Positions 47,610 to 61,644 of a stretch of DNA of 64,000 nt are shown here, piece by piece. Made by a program: the position numbers and the translations under genes. The stretch spans positions 2,046,001 through 2,110,000 of the forward strand of contig CP082230.1 in assembly GCA_019856515.1 (NCBI GenBank). The letters run 5' to 3'. The DNA comes from Prolixibacteraceae bacterium (GTDB lineage: Bacteria; Bacteroidota; Bacteroidia; Bacteroidales; Prolixibacteraceae). Each line of letters opens with the position of its first letter. Position 1 is the stretch's first letter. Under the pieces are notes generated by a model. The model was not told the origin of the DNA. It did not search any database and saw only the letters and a list, made by a program, of their open reading frames with translations.

Positions 47610-50057
47610 CTATTTCTTAATAAACTTCAATGTCTCTTTCGTACCATTCTCTTCCACAACTAAGAAGTAGATACCACTTGGAACTTGCTGCATTGAGATC
47701 ACTTGATCACTGTTATAATTATGGATTCTTCCAATAGCGCCACCCACACTACTATAAACAGTTATCTCAGCATGAGAAACACCATGTACCCTTACCTCCT
47801 CAACAGTAGGATTAGGATAAACATAAATTGAAGCTGTTGCTTTTTCGATTACTGGAGTACTTTTATTCGGTGTTACCTTTATTACAAAATCTCTTGTAAT
47901 TTCACGGTTCTCAGCCCATGTACAGCTAATAGTTACCTCCCCATCTTTAACACCAGTCAACAGACCTGCATCATCAATCGTTGCAATACTATTGTCATCA
48001 CTACTCCACTCCAATATTTGGTTCGTATTAGGAACCCCTTGACTTAGTACATATGCCTCAAATTGAAACTTCTGACCAACAAACACCACCCCTTTATTCT
48101 GGATAGGATAGGCACCAACATTCTCAGGCTGGTTACTTACAATACAGTCCGTCACACCCACAATTGAGGGATCAGACTTAGTCGCACATATACCTGAAAC
48201 TTCAGTAGACACTTCACCCAATGCTGCTCCATGTTGTAGAACTCCATTATAGACACATACGAAATCTATCTGATCTAATACAACATGATTACCACTCTTA
48301 TCATAAGCCCAATTTATATCAAATGCATCCCCTCCAAAACCTTCTTGAACTCCGAAAGTATATGGGTTATCGGGGATATAAGCCTTGTTTGACAACTTAT
48401 TAAAAGGAGTATTATCCGCATAACCATAGTCAAAAGATGCATTCACAACATAAGATTTAATAGAGGTACGTGATTTCAAACGTGTTCCTTTTAACGTATA
48501 TTGATCTTGAGATATATCTGGAAAATTCTTAGCTTCGGGATAATGATTTTGCTTATGAAACATAACCATATATTTAACAACCCCTGACTCTCCATCAGAT
48601 GTGACATAAGGGATATCAGCTAATCCTTCAGGATTGGTATAAGTAACTGAGTAGTCCCTCTTTGTTGTATTCAAATAGTGATCACTCCCACGTAATTCAT
48701 ACCATGTATCATCCGCTACACCGTTACCATTTTCATCTTTCATGACTTTAACAATACCAGGCTCAGAACTTCCAGAGAATGGATTTCCAATAATTGTAAA
48801 ATCCACACCATAAGGGTTATCCTTATGATTCAATATTGGGCTATCAAATCCATAGACGATATACCCACCCCATGCTCCTAGTGTAACCAGACGTCGTCCA
48901 AAAGGATTAACAACACGATTACCTAAAGTAAGCTCAGCAATACTTTTTAGACCAAAACTGGAGGTGTTCACAAACTGTCCTGGTGCAGGACAATACTCGA
49001 TTAACTTCGTTGGATAATTAGGTTCAAAACTATCTAAAATACTACGCTTCAACATCCTATCATCATCACTTTTCGCCACACAAACAGGGGTAGAACCAAA
49101 AGATGAAACCCACAGTGAATTTGTACCGTTGTATGAAGTTGATGAAAGTGTTGTAAACCATGTTCCTGCATTTGCCTCCATTATCTTCTGATATTTAGAA
49201 GGTGATGAATAATCATATCGAACAACGCTACATTGTTCACTATAACTATTTACATTCCAATATAGAACATCATCACTATCAAAAACACAATCATACATGC
49301 CATGATCCAAATTTGCCAAAGAGATACCATCTTCAATTCCTAATACTTTCTGTGAGTTCGTTGAGATGTCCGAATACTCCCACATATATAGACCAAAGTC
49401 GTTATTTGAAAGATCATATGATCCACAAACAATGGCACCATTTGATGAAATAGCCAAACCACATGAATTACCTGGAATCTCAATTACTTTCTTAGGAGCA
49501 GCACTGCCATCTAACGGTAACATCCAGATACTATTTGTATCATCAATGCCATTCCAATCAGAATAACCCAATCCAGATATAAACATCTTATCCTCATAAA
49601 TCTCAAGATCAAAGTTACATGCTAACTTTGCGATTTGAGTCCATTCTCCGGTAGAAATATCCACTTTATAGATATAGTCTTCTTGATTTCCATAAACAGT
49701 AAAACCTAAATAAACAGAGTTATTCGAAGAACTATATTTCAAAAACGAGGGATAAGAAGCTTGTGCCTCTAAAACATCACTTTGAAAGGAGATTGTACCA
49801 TCTGAGATCAATGACCCGATCACCTTTCCATCTTTAAATGTATAGACATGATCCTCGACAACAGCATACACTGAAGATACGTTATCCAGAGTTTGTAATG
49901 AACGGTAGCCATTAAAAAAACGATAGGAACTATTCGCCTCTGTAGGGACAATATTCTCTCTTTGCCCTTGAAGTTTCTCAATAAGCTGAAAACGATTTTG
50001 TGCTTGTAGGTTAGTGACAAGCATCAGTAAGAATACGAAAGCGTATATTTTTTTCAT
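47610..50057 (-). CDS. T9SS-sorted surface protein of the cobalamin operon (815 aa)
   Basis: A signal peptide (MKKIYAFVFLLMLVTNLQAQ) leads into a region of propeller-like repeats (residues about 40-360: GISLANLDHGMYDCVFD, DVLYWNVNSYSEQ). The central domain (about 380-650) is the block I know from Bacteroidota proteins encoded beside BtuB: LGAWGGYIVYGFDSPI, VDFTIIGNPFSGSSEPGIVK, DENGNGVADDTWYEL, GYADNTPF, LDQIDFVCVY. A BIG2-type Ig domain (WSSDDNSIATIDDAGLLTGV) and a T9SS sorting domain (YPNPTVEEVRVHG, GIYFLVV) end the protein. It is first in the operon and probably captures cobamides on the surface. Confidence 0.8.
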   Translation of the reverse strand: MKKIYAFVFLLMLVTNLQAQNRFQLIEKLQGQRENIVPTEANSSYRFFNGYRSLQTLDNVSSVYAVVEDHVYTFKDGKVIGSLISDGTISFQSDVLEAQASYPSFLKYSSSNNSVYLGFTVYGNQEDYIYKVDISTGEWTQIAKLACNFDLEIYEDKMFISGLGYSDWNGIDDTNSIWMLPLDGSAAPKKVIEIPGNSCGLAISSNGAIVCGSYDLSNNDFGLYMWEYSDISTNSQKVLGIEDGISLANLDHGMYDCVFDSDDVLYWNVNSYSEQCSVVRYDYSSPSKYQKIMEANAGTWFTTLSSTSYNGTNSLWVSSFGSTPVCVAKSDDDRMLKRSILDSFEPNYPTKLIEYCPAPGQFVNTSSFGLKSIAELTLGNRVVNPFGRRLVTLGAWGGYIVYGFDSPILNHKDNPYGVDFTIIGNPFSGSSEPGIVKVMKDENGNGVADDTWYELRGSDHYLNTTKRDYSVTYTNPEGLADIPYVTSDGESGVVKYMVMFHKQNHYPEAKNFPDISQDQYTLKGTRLKSRTSIKSYVVNASFDYGYADNTPFNKLSNKAYIPDNPYTFGVQEGFGGDAFDINWAYDKSGNHVVLDQIDFVCVYNGVLQHGAALGEVSTEVSGICATKSDPSIVGVTDCIVSNQPENVGAYPIQNKGVVFVGQKFQFEAYVLSQGVPNTNQILEWSSDDNSIATIDDAGLLTGVKDGEVTISCTWAENREITRDFVIKVTPNKSTPVIEKATASIYVYPNPTVEEVRVHGVSHAEITVYSSVGGAIGRIHNYNSDQVISMQQVPSGIYFLVVEENGTKETLKFIKK

Positions 50058-50304
50058 CGCTCAATTATAAAAATGATTTTAGAGCAATAAGCAATGAAAT
50101 CCCTACAACATACCTACCCATGTGAGATAAATATACATTTACCAAACCATTGTAGACATGTTATTGAAATGTATGCCTTTGCTACTTAATAATTAAAAAT
50201 CTATTTTCTACAGTAGCAATGACCTGACTGAAGTGCGCGCGCCAACGTAATTCATTGTGAAGTACTGATCCTCCGCCTGTTCTCCGCAGACTGTAGAAAT
50301 CTTT

Positions 50305-50497
50305 ATTACAATGGCAGGTCTTCTGACTTATCCCAATCACTAGAACCTTCCCATTCCAAAATAGAACAGTGGTCTGTCTCTAGCAATCTTGATCGATATC
50401 TAAATCGAACAGGATTCACAGCAGCGGGAACTGTTACCGATTCTAACGGTATTCCCTTTTAATTCTCAGGTAATAAATTACCATCGAGAAACCAATG
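50305..50497 (-). promoter_or_regulatory. Cobalamin riboswitch, minus strand
   Basis: The minus strand carries the aptamer core: AAAAGGGAATACCGTTAGAA, then CGGTAACAGTTCCCGCTGCT, the CCACTG and GGGAAGG segments, and GTCAGAAGACCTGCC (the 3' conserved box, 50327-50313). It lies about 250 bp upstream of the T9SS protein gene and should shut the operon down when adenosylcobalamin is abundant. Confidence 0.92.
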
Positions 50498-50888
50498 ATG
50501 ACACAAATGTATAAAAAGTTATCTGACAAATTAACTTTTATTATCATGGATTTAATAAATCAACAAAATATATTCTATCACTTAACATTAAACCATAAAT
50601 TCAAAATGAAGTACAACTCGACTCATAAAGTCACTAGCACAAAACAACTTATATCAGCCCCACATTACCTCTTCTCATATAATTTACAATCAATGAAGAG
50701 GCATATTGTATATAACCCAACAAAGGCATCTAAAATAAATCAATCCCAAAACGACGAACACCCTCAATAATAGGATATAGAGGTCCTATTTAATATTACA
50801 TCATGAAAATACTGTAAAATAGAGACATTCATCATACTGTATAAGTGCAACAATTTTATACATTTGTACACATTATTACAAAAAACAC

Positions 50889-51080
50889 AATTAGTAGGTA
50901 TCATCATTAGCTCTATCTCGATAGAGTTATACTGATTTAAAATGGGAATCTAGTGTAAATCTAGAACAGTACCCGCTGCTGTAATGCTATGTTTAAAACA
51001 AAATAACAATAACCCCACTGGGAGAGATCTTGGGAAGGGAATATTTTGTGAGTAGCTAAGTCAGAAGACCTGCCACTATT
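50889..51080 (+). promoter_or_regulatory. Cobalamin riboswitch, plus strand
   Basis: The core AATGGGAATCTAGTGTAAAT, AACAGTACCCGCTGCTGTAA, GGGAAGGG and GTCAGAAGACCTGCC (51060-51074) match the cobalamin aptamer. A GGCAGGT at 51130-51136 can pair with ACCTGCC (51068-51074), a likely expression-platform switch. It lies 200 bp before the giant gene. Confidence 0.92.
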
Positions 51081-51281
51081 GGTAAAATGCATTTATAAAC
51101 ACCTTCGGGAGCTAGGGTGATCGCATTAGGGCAGGTACTATTTTAAATCATTATTCGAAGACCTCTTTCTATTATTATAGAAGAGAGACGACTATTGCAT
51201 GGTGACCGACTTTCCCTATTATTGAATAAGATCACTCCTTCCTCTCAAAGGATAAATCAACATAGTTCTTATTCAAAAATC

Positions 51282-54200
51282 ATGAAAAAAAACCTACTTT
51301 TATTACTCACCCTCCTAAGCATCTCTTTGAGTAGCTATGCACAAGAGTATCTAGAGAGTTTTGAAGACCCCAACTGTTTAACCCAAAACAATTGGACCCT
51401 CATCCATGGAGGAGGAGACTCCCAATGGGAGATTGACTCTAATGGACATACTGGAGATCATGCCATATCAATTAATTCATCAAGAGTTACCAATGATGAC
51501 TTCTTGGTCTGCCCTTTGGTAGAAGTAAAGGAAGGCAGTACCTTCTCTTTTTGGGCAAAAAGTCAATACAGCTTTTCAAAAGAGAGTTTTACTGTCTATA
51601 TCACAGAAGCATCCCCTAGCAGGTCAAACTTCAAGACAATCCTAGAAGAGGTAAACGCCGTTCCTCAGAACTATCAAGAATACACCTACTCCTTGGATTC
51701 ATATATAGGCAAACAGGTCTACCTTACAATTCACGCTACATCAGCAAACAACTACAAGCTATTTATTGATGATGTAACACTTCCCCAAAAGCATATCCCT
51801 AAAGTTGCCCCAAACACACCAGAGCTCACACTTCCTGTCCATGAACAAACAGAGATAGATATAACGACAGAACTCAAATGGAACAAAGTCCCTTTTACAG
51901 GGAACTATTTGGTCTCACTAGGAACAACTACAGAGGCAAATAATATTTTTGATAATAAAGAGGTTACTGCCTCACAATTAAAAATAAAAGATCTAGACTA
52001 CAATCAACAATACTATTGGAAAGTTACGGCTAAAAACAGCTATGGTAGTAGCCCAGAATCAACCACGCTGACCTTCACCACCATGGATGATCCGACTGTA
52101 ACGCTATTTCCTTGGAAAGAAGCGTTTGAGTCCAAGAAATTCCCTCCTCTAGGGTGGAGAACGATCAATATAGACAAGGATGCAAAACAGTGGATAAGAA
52201 ACTTATTTTCTGGAGTATCAAACTCCAAATGTGCAAGTATCAATGGATATTCACTTTCTGACGACTGGTTGATCTCACCCCCTCTTCAACTCCCTAACTC
52301 TGCCCTGCTGAAGTATGCAGCAAAAACTTACGGCAGTCAGATAGAAGTAGCTATCTCTACATCGGGCAATGAACCTGAAGAGTTCGAAATAATTCATACC
52401 CAAAAGACCACAGGAACATACCAAGATTACCTATTAGATCTGTCAAAATATCAAGGACAGAGAGTATTTATCGCATTCCATCACAAGGCAAACCAAGCTC
52501 TTGACTTGGATGATATCTCGATCAAAACAGGAACCCCCGTCCAGTTAAATGAGATAAACTACAGTTCTCCTGTAAATTCATCCATGGCAAGAGGAAGTAT
52601 AGACCAACTGCTCACAAGAATTGACCTCGATCTAACAGGAGAAGTAGGAACGGTACCACTTGAGACTCTTCAACTGAAAGTCACTCCCAATAAAGCGGTG
52701 AAGAAGCTAAAGATATTCCACACAAGATCCGACCAGTTTAAGGATCAAACACTATGGAAAGAGCATATCATTACTGAAGATAACCAGCAACAAATCACAT
52801 TTGACCAGCAACTAGAGAAAGGCAAAAACTATTTATGGGTCACTGCGGACATCCATCAAGAGTTGGCCTTTGGAACTGAAATTCAAGCGATCCCGTTTAG
52901 TGTGGAAGTGGACAAAACAGAATATCTGTTTGAAAACAACGCAAGCTACAAGGCAAGGCAAGTGATGAATATGGTCCACCTCACTTCTGGTAACAAGATT
53001 ATCAGCGTAGACAAATCTCTATCCTTCTTTGATGATGGTGGAGTAGACCAGAACTATAGCGAAAACTTTGAAGGCACAGTCACTTTCCAACCTAAACACA
53101 AAGAAAAGATCATCGCCATCGAATTCAATCAGTTCGATATATTCAACACATCGAGTACAGGTAAGAACGACCTCTTTGAAGTATATAAAGGAGCCTCTAA
53201 GGACCCTAAAAATCTTATTGGAACATACTCTAAGATGCCTCCAATTATTGAGTCAGAGAGCTTAGGTGGAGCATTAACCATATATTTCAAAGTAAAAACT
53301 TCACTACCAAGATCAGGATGGGAAGCAACTGTTAAAGAGGTGACTGCACAAACAATGACGGTGGCTTCGATCAAAGGGATAGCTCCAGAAAACAAGCTAT
53401 TCAAACCGGCAGACAACAACGTGCTCCTAACAGGAATACATGTTATAACCAGCCATACGGCATCACCACTTCATCTTACCTCTATACCATTCAAACTAGC
53501 CGATAATAAAGTCCTAGACAACATATCTCGACTCTATCTTGTTACTTCAGGAGTAAAAAAGAGTCCTCTAAACATTGCACCTATTTCGACCATTGAACTC
53601 ACAAGCCAAACGGGTCAGATAGATGTAGATATTCCTCTCTCTTCAGGCGATAACTACTTTTGGATTCTTGCTGACATCAAACCAACTGCCAAGAACAATG
53701 AGAAGTTCTCACTGTCACTAACAGAACTTAACTTTAGAACAATCCAATCCCCATTAACACTACATGAAGAGTTTGATATTTCGACAGACTTTACAATGCC
53801 TGAATCGGGTTCACACACCGTGAATGTCGGAACTGAAAGTATCCGTTTTACCGACAGTGGAAAAGATAAAAAGCACAAGGCAGATGACAACACGACAGTA
53901 ACCTTTGTACCTAAAAATGCAGGCGAGAAAGTTAGAATCTCCTTTAAAGACTTTGATCTGAACTATAGTAGTAGTGCATATTACGGAACGAAATCCGTTT
54001 TTGTAATCTACGACGGAGCAACAAAGACCACTCCTCTTTTCACCTTAAGTAGTCTCAATAGAACTACAGGGCCAGAAAAAGCCATCACCTCCACTAGCGA
54101 TGACGGCTCTCTAACCGTACACTTTATTGCAAAAACACGAAGTAGTTCCTATACCAAAGAGGGGTGGGACGCCATCGTTCAATCTGTAAAAGATGAACCC

Positions 54201-57200
54201 ATCCATGCAGAAAAAGTGATACAGCATAACCTAAATCCTACCCAAATAGGAATAGGACAAGAATCTATGCCAGTAGTTAAAGCGTTGGTTAAAACAACGG
54301 GATTAAAGTCGAATCCAGCGTCAGGCAATATCACATGGAACTTGAACTACGATGTCTCCACACTAAAGAACATTAAAAAGGTTCACCTCTACTATCTTGC
54401 AAACAGAGACAACTTTGAAGAGGCCACCCTGATCCATAGCTATACGACAGATCATATTGAAACCTTCCAATCCAACCAAGAGCTGGCAGAAGGCAACAAC
54501 TACTTCTGGTTTACCTTCGATATCGACTCCAGTGCGGAAGACAATCAACCGCTCCATGTAAAAATAGATCAAGTTACTATTGCATCAGAATCAATAGGGA
54601 TCGAAGGCAATGATAATTTTGCTCAGACCATCCTTAAAAGGTTTATCAACTTCTCATCCACTATAGACACCTATACTGTCGGCGAGAAACCAACACAATT
54701 CTTCGATGACGGAGGAGAGACAGGTAATTATAGTCAAGCATTAGACCATCAGATTACCTTTATCCCGGAACAAGAGAGCCAATCCGTAAGAGTCGACTGG
54801 AATGAAATAGATCTAGACGACTATGGGTTTGATAAAATAAAGGTATACAACGGCAAGAATGCCACCGAAGAAGATCTGCTGTCCACCTATGAGAGTAAGG
54901 TGAACACCCCTCATATCGATAAGGCGATGAATAAAGATGGGGCACTAACCATACATTTCAAATCAACAACCTATGCGACGCCTAAAAGTGGATGGCGTGC
55001 CATAGTAAAAACATACACCCCTACGCCGATTACATTCCATAGTGCACAAACGACACCAGCACCGAATCGTTTCGTAAAAAAGGGAGAAGAGAACTATGTT
55101 GTTCTTCACTCTGCTTTAAACTTTAGAGGAGAAAAAGATACGGAGACCATCACAGACGTGACAGGTAATATCGGCAATACTACAACCTCAACAGATATTG
55201 TAAAATCAAAGCTATGGGCATCCCATAATCAACCAGACTTAAGTCAAGCAAAACTTATTGGAGAATCTACCATTGATAGTAACACTGGTGAATTTCACTT
55301 CGATACCAATATCGACATCGACAGAGAATCCGATATACATCTATGGCTCACTTATGATCTGGCTGCCACAGCCGAAATCGGTCATCATATTGATGCCAAT
55401 TTCACCGAAGTAGGGTTAAAGAGTAGCACCATCACACCTACAGCCCATACAGCTCAAATAAACACGATTGAGAGTGGAATGCATGGAAACTACACCGTAG
55501 GAAACTTAGGCGATTACAACACCCTTAACGAGGCACTAAACGCATTGAAAACAAAAGGAATAGATGGTGCAACAACATTCAATATAAAAGAGGGTAAATA
55601 CAGTGAGGTCATCACTATTCCTTCGATTCAAGGTGCATCAAAAATCAACACCCTTCTTATTCAATCAGAAGCAGAGGATGCAACCAAAGTGACATTCATA
55701 AATGAAACGGCATCAGAGGATATCAAGAGCTTATTTATCGTGCATCACAGCAAATATGTGACCATAAAGCATCTCTCTTTTGAATCTTCAAATACAGCCT
55801 TAGATCAACTCGTACTTATCGATGATAATAGCCAACATATCACATTCGACAACTGTCGATTTAAAGCACCTATTGCCACCTCATATCGTAATGACATCAA
55901 CTTACTCAAGACCAAAGCGGAAGATGTAGCAAATAAGAATAACGACCATCTACAATTCACATCTAACCACTTTGAAGGAGGATATATTGCACTAAACATT
56001 GGTGGCACTGGATATGTAAGACTTCCCAAACAGAGAGATTGTCTTATTGAGAAGAACCACTTCTTGAATCAGGGATCTAAATCCATCTATTGTAACAACC
56101 AAGTAGATGTGATAATCAAATCGAACCATATCGAAAATACCAAGAGTACTAAATCAGGATTCCAAGGAATGGATATCTATCGTGCCAAAGGGCAGGTGGT
56201 AATATTCAATAATACCGTGGATCTTCAATTAGATAAAAATGGCTATGGTTTTGAAGTAAGAGAGTCTGAAGGAACCATAGAAAGCCCCATATTGGTATAC
56301 AACAACATGATTGCTATCAATGCCAAAACAGGCAAAAGTTATGGGATGAACATCACACGACAATCCAGATACATAGACATCGCTTACAACACAGTAAACA
56401 TCTATGGAACCAACGATAGCGGAGTAGGCATTGGATCGATAGGTAGAAGAGAAGGTGACTATCCTCTGGCACAGACCTATCGTTACAACAATATCATCTC
56501 TCTTATTGGACAATCCATGTCCTTCAAGAAGATCGTTACGGCAGACCAAGTTCAGGTCGTGAAGAACAATCTGAATGCATCTAATGGGGTACAAATAGGA
56601 GATGACAAATACGAGGAGATCACAGCGATAAATAACCTCACTGCATTTACAGGCAACATAAAATCACCAGCTGCGTTTATCTCAGAGACAGACCTTCACC
56701 TGACACACCAAACAGAGCTAAACAGAGGTGAGGTTGTAGACTATATTCTAACGGATATCGATGGAGACAAACGAACAGTACCATACACTCTAGGAGCGGA
56801 TCAATTTATCGAGATATCTCAAACAGCGCCAGTGATTAGAGAGGGATATCCAAAAGTCATTTCAGAATCCCATAACGAACTCACTGTCGAGATCGTTTCA
56901 GACAAAGCAGGTACAGCATATGGTTACATCTATCAAGATAAAACGGCTTCTCTAACCCCGGAGCAGATCATGGCACAAGCCACCACCAATGCATCGATCT
57001 TCACAAAAGGGCTCGCCGCCAACAAAACCAGCCAAATTGTAGTTGAAAAACTTAAGCCAAACACGAACTACATCATCGATGTAGTGGTTGTAGATCTTCA
57101 GAATAAAGCTTCCGAATTGAAGCAAATAGAGGCACATACACCATATGCACCAACATCGATAGCCGACTTTGAAAATATCTCCATGCAAGATGACAAGATC

Positions 57201-58979
57201 ATTTCAGGAACAGTAGAAGCGACCAATGTCACCATCAAAGAGGAATCTAAAGGCACCCATGGTCACATTGCGGAAGTAGAAGCCAACGAGACAGCCCACT
57301 TCCTATTCAACAATACTGATAAAGGAATAACTGTTCAAGGTTTCTACATCCAGAGCAATGCTTCTACAATCATGACCATCTATAGTGGTACAACACCTAC
57401 TATTGTCACGATACCTTCCACCGAGGAGAAATGGAGCTATATCTCCCTACTCGAATATGACAATATTACCGCTTTTGATATCGAAGCACAAACAACAAAA
57501 CTATCGATAGATGACATCCACCAATCTCCTGCTCCCCTAACGGTTGAAGAGATTACAACATCCAGAATAACAAAAGGGGAGGTAGCACATGTCACAGTGA
57601 ACGTTTCTGGAGGACATACCCCATACACCGTCGAATATAACGGGATCGCACAAACCAATCGAACAGGACTATTCGAATACGATCTCACTTTGGATAACTC
57701 TAATGAAATATTCTTTACAGTCAAAGACCAAGAGAAAACAACGGCTGTTACATCATGTATTATCGAGGTAACAGCACCTCTTGGAACCATGGACTTCGAG
57801 TCTTTCGACCTAAAAGAGAACGACTTCTGGAGAGGACGAATGATAAATGGAGTAGTAGACACCAAGCTGTTTGAGAGTGGCTTTGGCGCAAAGTCATATT
57901 TCAATAAAGCATACTTCACATGGACAGGGCTGAATGTGTCCAACAAAATAGATAAAGAGGTTGCTGGAGGGTTAATGAACCAACACACCGCCATCACTGG
58001 TGTAGGAGCAGACAACTCTACCAATTACGGGGTCATCTATGCCTTCTCAAAAGAGGCAATCGAAGTGTCAGGACAACCAGAAGGAGCTGTCATCACAGGG
58101 ATGTATGTGACCAACAATACCTATGCCGTTACTTCCATGAAGCAGGGAGATGCCATCGCAAAAAAATTCGGTGGAGCAGATGGAACGGATCAAGACTGGT
58201 TCAAATTGGTAGCCATAGGGTATGACTCACAGAATAACAAAACAGGGGAGACGGAGTTCTACCTTGCAGATTTCCGTTCTAACATCTCATCTAAAGACTA
58301 TATCGTTGAGAGTTGGGAATGGATGGACCTATCTACTTTGGGAAAAGTGAATAGAATCGAATTCAAGATGATCTCTAGCGATGTGAATAAAGTGGGACAA
58401 GCCAACACCCCAGCTTACTTCTGTTTCGACAACTTTAACGGCTCTAGTCCTTCCGATCAAGGCCCTATATTAAAGAAAGAACTGCCAAGCATCCTATTTA
58501 AAACCGATCAGTACATATTGGATTTAAAAGAGTATTTCGAAGACCCTGATGGAGACAACCTCTCTTTTGAAATTGAGAATCTCGACAGATCAATTACATA
58601 TGAGATAGACAATGGCATATTGACACTAAGAAAAAGTGTAAAATCGACCACACCTTCACTGTTCAATATTATTGCAAAGAGTCTTCAAAAGCACATATCG
58701 GTACCAGTAAATATCGAACTAACCACAGGTATATCATCAAGAGATATTGCAACAACAGTTAAGATCGGACCAAATCCAACAAGGGACTATCTATATATAG
58801 AGAGTACTTCAATGATAGACAAGGTTCAGGTCTTCAACTTACATGGACAGTCCCTACTGCACAAGGAACCAAACAAAGATAAGGATCAAATAGATTTCTC
58901 AACGTGGGAAAGAGGAGTCTACATCATATTTGTTCATCATGGCAGAAAAACATTCAAACAAAAGGTCGTACTAAACTAA
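51282..58979 (+). CDS. Giant riboswitch-controlled T9SS surface protein with DUF4465 domain (2565 aa)
   Basis: The start is the ATG at 51282, which gives a signal peptide (MKKNLLLLLTLLSISLSSYA); a 51195 start gives none. Domains by residue: cleaved-adhesin/choice-of-anchor J (21-167), FN3 (173-268), second anchor-J (276-417). Then four BNR-N-like modules (425-546, 692-822, 975-1108, 1250-1390; signature L-GNNYFWFTFD-like) alternate with three CUB-like modules (578-690, 850-970, 1136-1246; signature FFDDGG...GW-A-VK). A parallel beta-helix (1399-1840) and FN3/Ig-like domains (1850-2164) follow. DUF4465 (about 2166-2393; FKEN-type FDLKENDFWRG, FTWTGLNVSNK, FCFDNF) precedes a cadherin-like domain and a T9SS sorting domain (2491-2565, IGPNPTRDYLYI, RGVYIIFV). 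DUF4465 is, to my knowledge, the BtuH cobalamin-binding domain. Confidence 0.85.
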   Translation: MKKNLLLLLTLLSISLSSYAQEYLESFEDPNCLTQNNWTLIHGGGDSQWEIDSNGHTGDHAISINSSRVTNDDFLVCPLVEVKEGSTFSFWAKSQYSFSKESFTVYITEASPSRSNFKTILEEVNAVPQNYQEYTYSLDSYIGKQVYLTIHATSANNYKLFIDDVTLPQKHIPKVAPNTPELTLPVHEQTEIDITTELKWNKVPFTGNYLVSLGTTTEANNIFDNKEVTASQLKIKDLDYNQQYYWKVTAKNSYGSSPESTTLTFTTMDDPTVTLFPWKEAFESKKFPPLGWRTINIDKDAKQWIRNLFSGVSNSKCASINGYSLSDDWLISPPLQLPNSALLKYAAKTYGSQIEVAISTSGNEPEEFEIIHTQKTTGTYQDYLLDLSKYQGQRVFIAFHHKANQALDLDDISIKTGTPVQLNEINYSSPVNSSMARGSIDQLLTRIDLDLTGEVGTVPLETLQLKVTPNKAVKKLKIFHTRSDQFKDQTLWKEHIITEDNQQQITFDQQLEKGKNYLWVTADIHQELAFGTEIQAIPFSVEVDKTEYLFENNASYKARQVMNMVHLTSGNKIISVDKSLSFFDDGGVDQNYSENFEGTVTFQPKHKEKIIAIEFNQFDIFNTSSTGKNDLFEVYKGASKDPKNLIGTYSKMPPIIESESLGGALTIYFKVKTSLPRSGWEATVKEVTAQTMTVASIKGIAPENKLFKPADNNVLLTGIHVITSHTASPLHLTSIPFKLADNKVLDNISRLYLVTSGVKKSPLNIAPISTIELTSQTGQIDVDIPLSSGDNYFWILADIKPTAKNNEKFSLSLTELNFRTIQSPLTLHEEFDISTDFTMPESGSHTVNVGTESIRFTDSGKDKKHKADDNTTVTFVPKNAGEKVRISFKDFDLNYSSSAYYGTKSVFVIYDGATKTTPLFTLSSLNRTTGPEKAITSTSDDGSLTVHFIAKTRSSSYTKEGWDAIVQSVKDEPIHAEKVIQHNLNPTQIGIGQESMPVVKALVKTTGLKSNPASGNITWNLNYDVSTLKNIKKVHLYYLANRDNFEEATLIHSYTTDHIETFQSNQELAEGNNYFWFTFDIDSSAEDNQPLHVKIDQVTIASESIGIEGNDNFAQTILKRFINFSSTIDTYTVGEKPTQFFDDGGETGNYSQALDHQITFIPEQESQSVRVDWNEIDLDDYGFDKIKVYNGKNATEEDLLSTYESKVNTPHIDKAMNKDGALTIHFKSTTYATPKSGWRAIVKTYTPTPITFHSAQTTPAPNRFVKKGEENYVVLHSALNFRGEKDTETITDVTGNIGNTTTSTDIVKSKLWASHNQPDLSQAKLIGESTIDSNTGEFHFDTNIDIDRESDIHLWLTYDLAATAEIGHHIDANFTEVGLKSSTITPTAHTAQINTIESGMHGNYTVGNLGDYNTLNEALNALKTKGIDGATTFNIKEGKYSEVITIPSIQGASKINTLLIQSEAEDATKVTFINETASEDIKSLFIVHHSKYVTIKHLSFESSNTALDQLVLIDDNSQHITFDNCRFKAPIATSYRNDINLLKTKAEDVANKNNDHLQFTSNHFEGGYIALNIGGTGYVRLPKQRDCLIEKNHFLNQGSKSIYCNNQVDVIIKSNHIENTKSTKSGFQGMDIYRAKGQVVIFNNTVDLQLDKNGYGFEVRESEGTIESPILVYNNMIAINAKTGKSYGMNITRQSRYIDIAYNTVNIYGTNDSGVGIGSIGRREGDYPLAQTYRYNNIISLIGQSMSFKKIVTADQVQVVKNNLNASNGVQIGDDKYEEITAINNLTAFTGNIKSPAAFISETDLHLTHQTELNRGEVVDYILTDIDGDKRTVPYTLGADQFIEISQTAPVIREGYPKVISESHNELTVEIVSDKAGTAYGYIYQDKTASLTPEQIMAQATTNASIFTKGLAANKTSQIVVEKLKPNTNYIIDVVVVDLQNKASELKQIEAHTPYAPTSIADFENISMQDDKIISGTVEATNVTIKEESKGTHGHIAEVEANETAHFLFNNTDKGITVQGFYIQSNASTIMTIYSGTTPTIVTIPSTEEKWSYISLLEYDNITAFDIEAQTTKLSIDDIHQSPAPLTVEEITTSRITKGEVAHVTVNVSGGHTPYTVEYNGIAQTNRTGLFEYDLTLDNSNEIFFTVKDQEKTTAVTSCIIEVTAPLGTMDFESFDLKENDFWRGRMINGVVDTKLFESGFGAKSYFNKAYFTWTGLNVSNKIDKEVAGGLMNQHTAITGVGADNSTNYGVIYAFSKEAIEVSGQPEGAVITGMYVTNNTYAVTSMKQGDAIAKKFGGADGTDQDWFKLVAIGYDSQNNKTGETEFYLADFRSNISSKDYIVESWEWMDLSTLGKVNRIEFKMISSDVNKVGQANTPAYFCFDNFNGSSPSDQGPILKKELPSILFKTDQYILDLKEYFEDPDGDNLSFEIENLDRSITYEIDNGILTLRKSVKSTTPSLFNIIAKSLQKHISVPVNIELTTGISSRDIATTVKIGPNPTRDYLYIESTSMIDKVQVFNLHGQSLLHKEPNKDKDQIDFSTWERGVYIIFVHHGRKTFKQKVVLN

Positions 58980-59211: not shown

Positions 59212-60375
59212 ATGAAAACGAACTCAAAACTAATAGTTGCCATCTGCATCATTGCCATTCTGGCTGGATGGAAATTTAATGACACAAACAACACGATCAA
59301 AGAATCCCCCAAGACAACAGGAGAAACAGCACACAGATGGAGTATTGAAAAAGCCAATGATTGGCAACAGAAGTACGATTGGCTTGTCGGTGCCAACTAT
59401 ATTCCCTCCACAGCCATGAATCAACTTGAGATGTGGCAACAAGCATCTTTCGATCCCAAGCGTATAGACCAAGAGCTCCAATGGGCAAACGAAATTGGAT
59501 TCAACACCATGAGAGTGTTTCTTCATAACCTAGCATGGGAAGTGGACAACACGGGTTTCATAGAGAGGATGGAGACTTTCCTACAGATCGCCGACAAACA
59601 TCATATTAAAATCATGTTTGTTCTTCTAGACGACGTATGGAACCCGAACCCCAAGTTAGGGACACAACCTTCTCCCACACCTCATGTGCATAACGCTGGA
59701 TGGGTACAAAGCCCAGGAAAAAGCATCTTATCAAACAAAAGCCAATGGGGAAGAGTTAAGGATTATGTACAGGGAGTAATGTCACATTTCAAAGATGACA
59801 AACGAGTGATCATTTGGGATCTATACAACGAACCGGGCAATCCAAACCAAGATAGTTATGGCGATATCGAAGTGCCAAATAAGGACAAGCACTCTCTCGC
59901 ACTACTTAAAAACGTGACCCAATGGGCTAGAGAAGTCAATGCTACTCAACCATTGACAATCGATATATGGAGAGCAATCCATACGCCTATAGAGAAGATG
60001 AATGACATCGATCAATTTGCATATAATCACTCCGACATTATCAGTTTCCACTGCTATGCAGAGGCAGCTTCTACAGAGAAAATGGTCAAAGAGCTCTCTA
60101 AATCAGGACGTCCACTCCTATGTACCGAATATATGGCACGCCCCGTTGGATCAACCTTTGAGGATATTCTACCTATCTTCAAGAAATACCATATTGCAGC
60201 CTACAACTGGGGGTTTGTTTCTGGAAAATCCCAAACCATCTATCCGTGGAGATCTTGGAAGAAACCATTAATCAAAGAGCCAGATTTGTGGTTTCATGAT
60301 ATTTTAAAGGAAAATGGGACTCCTTATAAAAAAGAAGAAGTCAAATTCATTAAAAGTTTGATTCAAAAAAACTGA
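59212..60375 (+). CDS. GH5-like secreted glycosidase (clan A barrel)
   Basis: A 387-residue enzyme. Residues 5-22 form a hydrophobic leader (KLIVAICIIAILAGWKF), signal peptide or anchor. The TIM barrel shows WANEIGFNTMRVFLHNLAWE, the acid/base IIWDLYNEPGN (Glu207) and the nucleophile RPLLCTEYMAR (Glu306), the layout of cellulase-type clan A hydrolases. It is most like GH5-type beta-mannanase/cellulase relatives, but the substrate is open. It is on its own, not under the riboswitch. Confidence 0.85.
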   Translation: MKTNSKLIVAICIIAILAGWKFNDTNNTIKESPKTTGETAHRWSIEKANDWQQKYDWLVGANYIPSTAMNQLEMWQQASFDPKRIDQELQWANEIGFNTMRVFLHNLAWEVDNTGFIERMETFLQIADKHHIKIMFVLLDDVWNPNPKLGTQPSPTPHVHNAGWVQSPGKSILSNKSQWGRVKDYVQGVMSHFKDDKRVIIWDLYNEPGNPNQDSYGDIEVPNKDKHSLALLKNVTQWAREVNATQPLTIDIWRAIHTPIEKMNDIDQFAYNHSDIISFHCYAEAASTEKMVKELSKSGRPLLCTEYMARPVGSTFEDILPIFKKYHIAAYNWGFVSGKSQTIYPWRSWKKPLIKEPDLWFHDILKENGTPYKKEEVKFIKSLIQKN

Positions 60376-60456: not shown

Positions 60457-61644
60457 TCATAAAGCTTTTAATGTCATAAATACCAATTGTTTATTGTGCT
60501 CATCAGTCTTTTTTACAAGCTCTTTTATCTCTTGACTAAATACTGATTTTACATTACGATAGTGGGTCCATGTTGTTGTAATTAAAATATTATCTTTTAC
60601 ACCAATAAACTCCGATACAAATGGAAGGTTTTTACCTGTATCTTTCATGTCTAAGTAAATAAAATCTCCATGCTTTTTTATAAACCGTCTTCTGTCGTAA
60701 GAATTTCTCCTAATATATCTACGTATTTCCAGTAATTGTAACTGATTACTTTCCATAAAAGAACTAAACATATAACCATTACGGTTATCATCGGAGATGC
60801 CTATTGCCCCAAAGTTAAAGCGATATTTATTATTCACTTTGTCATTGGACATATCATAAGAGAAGATGCAATCATACCCGAAATCTCCTGTAATTATTCT
60901 ATGGTGACTATTTTGTGATACCTGTAACGGTGTTCTGTAATCTCGGCGGTTGCTCTTATTAACCGTCGTAATATGACTTACTTTCAGTGCAGGTGTCATC
61001 TTAATCATTGCATTTCCTATTTTATTTTGAAGCTTTTCAACCGGCTGTGTCCCAGTTGTAACAGCATAAATATCTCCAGCATTAACAAAGATTTTCTTCA
61101 AATTAATAGGTAACTGCTTTTTGACCTTTAATGCTCCTTTAGGTGTGAAATAAAATAAATAACAGTCTGAAAGAACCACCAATTCATTACGAACGTTATC
61201 AAATACAACACTCTTTATGAGACCAAATTTTACGCCATCATTGAATCTACATATCCTGCGAACAAACTTGCCTTCGGCGGTAAAAACGATAACATAAGGT
61301 GCCATTGCATTATATGCATAGATATAGTCAGTAGTAATGGTGTATTGTGTTTGGCCATCTAATCGACTTTGGGGAGTGCGCTCCAGGTCGATGATTTTGT
61401 AGCTTTCTACTTTCTCATGTAAAGGAACAGGTTTTTGTTTTAGTAACGAGTCAACATCAATTACATCTAAAGCAGGTTCATTTACATAAGCAATTTTAGC
61501 ATGTTCAATATCTAACATGGCCATTTCTTCTTTGGAAATACCACGGAATTCATTCTTTAAGAATTTTGGAAGTAGAAATAGTAGAACTACAAAAACAAAG
61601 GTGAAAATCCCATACCCCACTATTAGTTTATTACTTTTTTTCAT
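60457..61644 (-). CDS. Membrane-anchored 6-bladed beta-propeller-like protein
   Basis: One membrane segment (KLIVGYGIFTFVFVVLLFLL, residues 5-27) anchors a periplasmic domain of about 365 residues. The strand-turn pattern resembles the 6-bladed propeller proteins common in Bacteroidota (YTITTDYIYAYNAMAPYVIV, FTAEGKFVRRICRFND, FNFGAIGISDDNRNGYM). It is last in the ABC/GntR operon, 4 nt after the regulator. It may sense or bind the transported compound, which is inference. Confidence 0.7.
   Translation of the reverse strand: MKKSNKLIVGYGIFTFVFVVLLFLLPKFLKNEFRGISKEEMAMLDIEHAKIAYVNEPALDVIDVDSLLKQKPVPLHEKVESYKIIDLERTPQSRLDGQTQYTITTDYIYAYNAMAPYVIVFTAEGKFVRRICRFNDGVKFGLIKSVVFDNVRNELVVLSDCYLFYFTPKGALKVKKQLPINLKKIFVNAGDIYAVTTGTQPVEKLQNKIGNAMIKMTPALKVSHITTVNKSNRRDYRTPLQVSQNSHHRIITGDFGYDCIFSYDMSNDKVNNKYRFNFGAIGISDDNRNGYMFSSFMESNQLQLLEIRRYIRRNSYDRRRFIKKHGDFIYLDMKDTGKNLPFVSEFIGVKDNILITTTWTHYRNVKSVFSQEIKELVKKTDEHNKQLVFMTLKAL

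Follow-up and report, generated by a model that had tools for sequence, protein, structure and literature searches.

A 64,000-nucleotide stretch of the genome of a Prolixibacteraceae bacterium (assembly GCA_019856515.1, contig CP082230.1, positions 2,046,001 to 2,110,000; hereafter the window) encodes a giant secreted protein of about 286 kDa that combines a predicted B12-binding domain of the BtuJ type (DUF4465) with a sorting domain of the type IX secretion system (T9SS), and whose gene follows a cobalamin riboswitch. We favour, with moderate confidence, the view that this giant captures cobamides as BtuJ proteins do, and that the captured B12 would feed BtuBG. The profile and riboswitch scores, together with recurrence in relatives, exclude a chance finding. 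Most of the locus is explained by known parts; what is new is the class of giants itself, its link to riboswitches and btu genes, a likely membrane-proximal head, and fusions to protease and BtuG domains.

The reading frame contains no internal stop, and the host genome is a single contig of 5.19 Mb. We took the ATG at 51282 as the start because a signal-peptide-like stretch begins there, and dropped an alternative TTG at 51195 on the same ground; no lipobox was seen on inspection of residues 1-20. From the N- to the C-terminus the protein carries two stretches each of Cleaved_Adhesin (Pfam, best at residues 279-396) and choice_anch_J (NCBIfam) with an fn3 domain, then CUB, three BNR_assoc_N stretches, DUF4465 and the T9SS type A domain, the last also recognised by Pfam as Por_Secre_tail at residues 2497-2563. 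Self-comparison found no internal repeat above threshold, though Pfam gives three BNR_assoc_N stretches. An FN3 match to the predicted structure (5dft, E 2e-3, Foldseek) has no pinpointed place in the model. A preliminary description of the window had proposed a 2565-residue protein with adhesin, BNR-N/CUB and FN3-like parts ending in DUF4465 and a T9SS sorting domain, and this outline is borne out by the Pfam and NCBIfam profiles and the model.

The same description labelled the binding module BtuH-type, which proved to be wrong. DUF4465 corresponds to BtuJ in published work, and its profile (PF14717) matches the giant with 168 bits (cut-off 25) over positions 3-176 of 176. The domain has the augmented beta-jellyroll fold and keeps two of the three ligand tyrosines shared by BtuJ proteins: the HI-loop tyrosine (BtuJ1 Tyr245) within NTPAYF at residues 2375-2380, and the DE-helix tyrosine (BtuJ1 Tyr146) within TNNTY at residues 2277-2281. 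A sequence search of the giant with E-values up to 1 returned five DUF4465-type chains and two weakly matching gingipain chains (3m1h and 4itc) and no match of the BtuH2 type (7BIZ; PMC8941943); it is the product of a neighbouring gene, at 47610-50057, that contains the BtuH2 domain. The giant would resemble BtuH2 and BtuGH of Bacteroides thetaiotaomicron in capturing B12, but the sequence search gave it no BtuH match of its own. It also differs in build from BtuJ1 and BtuJ2 (DUF4465, IPR027828) of the same species, which are small vesicle lipoproteins, whereas here a single DUF4465 sits near the C-terminal end of a 2565-residue chain with a T9SS tail.

The riboswitch (RF00174, gathering score 31.5) lies on the same strand as the giant gene and ends 191 nt before the ATG, in agreement with the roughly 200 bp given previously, and the giant is probably made when vitamin B12 is scarce. 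A promoter-like TAnnTTTG box, which we take to be the Bacteroidota -7 motif, precedes it. Downstream, GGCAGGT is the exact complement of ACCTGCC at the 3' side of the aptamer (51068-51074) and might serve as the expression platform, a tentative assignment because no exact complement was found in the other 7 of the 8 leaders compared. A second, divergent riboswitch, absent from the preliminary description and likewise with TAnnTTTG at its 5' edge, heads genes of the BtuH, BtuB and BtuG types. Given these neighbours, the region can be described as a B12-uptake locus with two T9SS-tailed capture proteins, one BtuH-type and one BtuJ-type.

Homologous fusions, a search for which had been proposed earlier, are found in other Bacteroidota. 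DUF4465 occurs in 72 of 140 genomes of the same family, where, among the matches listed, open frames longer than 2000 aa are confined to the genus of the window (G000, G075 and G076); across the order it occurs in 120 of 295 genomes, with seven matches in frames longer than 2000 aa, that of G000 included. In the order survey 11 of 13 large genes have an upstream riboswitch (L064 ends at a contig edge and L076 has none), with another gene in between at L069 and L072. A contig scan with the helix-to-tail alignment gave 79 loci, drawn from the best 80 of 280 confirmed matches and hence not a random sample (L087 and L088, equal in length and layout, may count double), and 21 of the 79 carry DUF4465 frames of at least 2000 aa (giants). 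Among the 20 giants with their N-terminus inside the contig (L091, cut at the contig start, was left out), a same-strand riboswitch lies upstream within 5.5 kb in 17, within 2.5 kb in 13 and within 500 nt in 9; in four of the 17 it is 4.4-5.1 kb away with other same-strand genes between. Two of the three giants lacking one (L083 and L084) lie behind same-strand btuH, btuB and btuG genes; at the third, L089, no link to B12 was found at the locus. Smaller DUF4465 genes are riboswitch-linked as well (within 5.5 kb, 16 of 18 frames of 900-1999 aa and 25 of 34 smaller ones), so the linkage is a trait of DUF4465 genes generally and not of giants alone.

For these counts a single WxW motif served to locate DUF4465 frames, and a regular expression to locate riboswitches. 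The expression recovered 30 of 30 aptamers called by Rfam and matched nothing else in 894,734 bases, a figure that includes both strands; 20 mononucleotide shuffles of the window, read on one strand, were likewise free of matches. The riboswitches at L086 and L109 escaped it but were picked up by Rfam, and because Rfam was run on only 7 of the loci that the expression had left empty, the counts are minimum values. Relatives of btu genes flank many loci: BtuH-like, BtuG and BtuB at 11, 7 and 4 of the 21 giant loci, at 8, 16 and 22 of the 36 small ones, and at 3, 3 and 2 of the 22 middle-sized ones. For the HI loop, the P-x-Y pattern picked up 20 of the 21 giants and missed L090.

Sorting by T9SS, which the preliminary description had read as surface attachment, is supported by the TIGR04183 tail and by the gene content of the host. 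The host genome has SprA and a strong PorV match, next to which a 1113-aa frame with a C25 peptidase and a C-terminal sorting domain (CTD) is probably PorU; 51 CTD matches are listed for the host genome, 42 of them over the cut-off. According to a review (PMC10202324), type A CTDs are cleaved by PorU and the substrate is joined to A-type lipopolysaccharide (A-LPS), or substrates are released. On this logic the C-terminal side would be the anchored one; since DUF4465 ends 110 residues before the CTD, the binding domain is expected near the membrane and the adhesin-like end far from it. The earlier picture, of a binding module held out on a very long stalk, is thereby turned round: with C-terminal attachment, and with DUF4465 near the C-terminal end in 20 of 20 giants, we dropped its placement at the tip. 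A membrane-proximal position would suit hand-over to BtuBG.

These observations lend themselves to a model. At low cobamide the riboswitch would permit expression of the giant, T9SS would export it, and PorU would join its C-terminus to surface LPS, leaving DUF4465 close to the membrane beside BtuG and BtuB, where it could hand captured B12 on. The approximately 2150 residues on the N-terminal side (beta-helix, BNR_assoc_N/CUB and adhesin-like tip) would then form an outward arm with glycan, particles or other cells as its targets, although a docking role for this arm is put forward tentatively. Cleavage of the CTD could instead leave the protein free or on vesicles as a 'cobalophore', which would bind B12 away from the cell and be brought back, a route that has been proposed for vesicle-borne BtuJ of B. 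thetaiotaomicron. In that species the B12 delivered by vesicles is attributed to BtuJ1 and BtuJ2 (PMC12751083), and the release of some T9SS substrates noted above would fit; however, a 286-kDa chain with adhesin-like domains would be a costly soluble carrier, and the type A tail and the PorU/PorV-type genes favour anchoring, and we regard such release as unlikely.

The composition of the arm bears on a further alternative, namely that the giant is mainly an adhesin or a glycan-binding or -degrading protein, expressed according to B12 status, with DUF4465 as a sensor or accessory. Adhesin, CUB, BNR_assoc_N and beta-helix regions make up most of the chain. The beta-helix noted previously has no Pfam match and is supported by the predicted structure of residues 1400-1829 (approximate), which in structural comparison comes closest to the beta-helices of enzymes (epimerases, lyases) and of adhesins; many of these score at similar Z, so the comparison does not choose a function. 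Within the helix K1600, D1631 and R1660, spaced about one coil apart, hardly vary across an alignment of 12 sequences (55434-57161; conserved in 90% or more) and might line a glycan-binding or catalytic groove. Against this alternative, DUF4465 and the riboswitch are retained while the rest varies. The part shared by the large relatives compared is the beta-helix, DUF4465 and the C-terminal region: residues 55-1199 of a 1216-aa protein of G159 align with residues 1415-2549 of the giant at 28% identity, and in L071 (1216 aa) and L073 (1066 aa), both under a riboswitch, Pfam gives helix, DUF4465 and T9SS tail only, BNR_assoc_N/CUB units being added in larger relatives. We give an adhesin or glycan function as the main role little weight. 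Gingipain/HagA-type adhesins of Porphyromonas gingivalis share the T9SS type A tail and Cleaved_Adhesin units with the giant (the weak 3m1h and 4itc matches), the likeness to HagA being presumed; we know of no DUF4465 or cobalamin riboswitch there.

Several observations weigh against the giant as a capture protein. The AB-loop tyrosine common to BtuJ1 and BtuJ2 (Tyr97 of BtuJ1) is L2231 in the giant; this column is variable among 34 sequences, and Tyr97 is not given as family-defining in the published BtuJ work. At the DE-helix aromatic position, 9 of the 21 giants have Tyr and 6 have Trp or Phe; in the other 6 the pattern did not find the residue. No btu relative was found in the flanks, some of them short, of 10 of 21 giant, 12 of 36 small and 19 of 22 middle-sized loci. 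Of 22 giants scanned with Pfam (ten of them over the C-terminal 330-600 aa only), no more than 10 showed a T9SS tail: over the cut-off in the window giant, L055, P0006, P0036, L066, P0043, L083 and L084, below it in L086 and L089, and not in L068, L069, L090, L096, L098, L099, L101, L109, L110, L112, L118 and L119. No tail was recognised in any scanned giant of Porphyromonas, of the Prevotella type or of Dysgonomonas, so T9SS sorting is not established class-wide, though their short C-terminal ends look CTD-like by eye.

Within the genus, each of the four members has btuH, btuB and btuG (the btuH frame of G076 is shorter, 507 aa), a riboswitch precedes each of the intact giants of G075 and G076, and G076 repeats the divergent layout of the window. 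Further points on the same unfavourable side are that the giant and btuHBG of G075 lie on different contigs, and that G074 keeps btuHBG with a decayed giant remnant lacking most of the middle: two frames match residues 22-257 and 268-491, the second runs straight into 2288-2344, and there are stop codons within the DUF4465. This speaks for an accessory and not an essential role of the giant. At the G074 locus (L059 9505-11633) a riboswitch is followed by the remnant, and a group II intron match (RF02001) adjoins.

A need for scavenging is, moreover, not obvious, because the host carries cobamide-synthesis genes covering much of the anaerobic pathway. Ten ORFs scanned match CbiL, CbiHC, CbiET, CbiGF, CbiJ, CbiD, CobQ, CobD, CbiB and CbiA models (the CbiC, CbiG, CbiJ and CobD matches fall below curated cut-offs), CbiK was matched twice, and riboswitches precede the rows of host genes at L016, L020 and L024. 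The same genes bear on the idea, raised in the preliminary description beside that of a surface cobamide scavenger, of an adhesin that under B12 shortage holds on to neighbours able to make it. Such a protein would be expected to have the riboswitch control and the adhesin-like domains at the N-terminus seen here, but a host with CbiL, CbiHC, CbiET, CbiGF, CbiJ, CbiD, CobQ, CbiB, CbiA and CbiK-type genes makes it highly improbable; the scavenger is the part we retain, at the moderate confidence stated above.

The host has a second DUF4465 gene with its own cobalamin riboswitch (L017 7342-11084; G000:C1:1269341-1273083), broken inside DUF4465 by a stretch that contains an ISL3 transposase gene (PF01610, E 3.4e-66, L017 8246-9487, + strand) and uninterrupted in G075 (799 aa) and G076 (796 aa); the giant is consequently the sole uninterrupted DUF4465 match of the host. 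Elsewhere in this genome (L021 524-8333; G000:C1:3112523-3120332) two gene pairs stand behind one cobalamin riboswitch: the first encodes a DUF4249 protein of 402 aa with a TonB receptor of 803 aa, the second a similar-looking pair of 410 and 790 aa.

Returning to the giants as capture proteins, a bolder and rather doubtful proposal is that those of Bacteroidales form distinct B12-regulated capture arms, in which a C-terminally anchored B12-binding head, lying at the membrane beside BtuB/BtuG, would be joined to an outer part of exchangeable kind. That part could be an adhesin tip, a beta-helix of glycan type or a protease of clostripain type, and would attach to B12-laden material or digest it, one and the same chain then freeing and catching the B12. 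The strongest hints are protease-bearing relatives and the BtuG-bearing P0006, with two DUF4465 domains and a DUF5074 (BtuG) domain. A full Peptidase_C11 domain precedes DUF4465 in P0036, P0043 and L066, and the WDHGGG and FDVC motifs, which we take to hold the catalytic His and Cys, are kept in all three protease-bearing relatives looked at; PF03415 is listed for 7 of 76 proteins of one set. Two large DUF4465 proteins from records of Novipirellula and Allorhodopirellula (P0011 and P0033) carry PF00404, presumably a dockerin, in a build unlike that of the T9SS ones.

Work on the B12 capture proteins of Bacteroidota has centred on the small lipoproteins made by gut Bacteroides; with recurring riboswitch-linked giants, competition for B12 would reach into other Bacteroidales, and fusions to protease or BtuG domains offer natural test cases for hand-over to BtuBG and for attack on B12 carriers. 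T9SS-tailed DUF4465 proteins, which share DUF4465 and a C-terminal sorting domain with the giant, are already in print, since 229 of 824 DUF4465 sequences carry IPR026444 (PMC12751083, section 8, counts only), which is used as a type IX marker (PMC8861167). In the open-access literature (subscription papers not covered) we found no description of the giant builds, their riboswitches, or the peptidase or BtuG fusions. PMC13398666 has no mention of type IX/T9SS, Por secretion, a sorting domain, multidomain proteins or domain architecture; in two others, BtuG and type IX secretion meet only in the reference list (PMC12578637), and the cobalamin riboswitch in a paper that also treats type IX secretion precedes a TonB receptor gene (PMC9723704).

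Features of the B12-uptake locus in the window (aa, residues of the encoded protein)
Feature	Position	Strand	Evidence
BtuG-type beta-propeller (DUF5074), 375 aa	44424..45551	-	8bmx_D, E 1.9e-120
BtuB-type TonB-dependent receptor, 666 aa	45556..47556	-	8bmx_C, E 3.6e-97
BtuH-type protein, 815 aa	47610..50057	-	aa 325-621 vs BtuH2 (7BIZ), E 1.3e-44; Big_2; T9SS type A tail
Divergent cobalamin riboswitch of btuH-btuB-btuG	50296..50511	-	RF00174, 98.1 bits
TAnnTTTG promoter-like box	50859..50866	+	
Cobalamin riboswitch aptamer of giant gene	50879..51090	+	RF00174, 88.3 bits, E 1.9e-20
GGCAGGT, possible expression platform	51130..51136	+	complementarity to aptamer
Giant secreted protein gene, 2565 aa	51282..58979	+	ATG at 51282; stop ends at 58979
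Signal-peptide-like stretch, aa 1-20	51282..51341	+	judged from sequence alone
Adhesin-like domain 1, aa 36-124, N-terminal end	51387..51653	+	weak gingipain chain match (3m1h), E 0.002
fn3 domain, aa 197-265	51870..52076	+	Pfam
Cleaved_Adhesin/choice_anch_J domain 2, aa 278-414	52113..52523	+	Pfam, NCBIfam
CUB domain, aa 589-683	53046..53330	+	Pfam
BNR_assoc_N, best of three, aa 1028-1102	54363..54587	+	Pfam
Parallel beta-helix, aa about 1400-1829	55479..56768	+	predicted structure
FN3-like module after helix, aa about 1855-1955	56844..57146 (approximate)	+	strands of model
DUF4465/BtuJ-type domain, aa 2166-2388 (Pfam core 2211-2385)	57777..58445	+	Pfam, E 3.5e-49
T9SS type A C-terminal sorting domain, aa 2496-2564	58767..58973	+	TIGR04183, E 1.6e-8, 34.4 bits (cut-off 23)

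A glycoside-hydrolase-like ORF downstream of the giant (59212-60375) was dropped as a member of the module on comparison with G076 (L056), where the next ORF of at least 200 aa after the giant is on the minus strand and its start resembles, by eye, that of 60457-61644. Farther away, positions 9621-30806 of the window form a prophage region, in which the 10 ORFs scanned against PHROGs gave terminase, portal, head protease, major head, head-tail adaptor, tape measure and tail matches.
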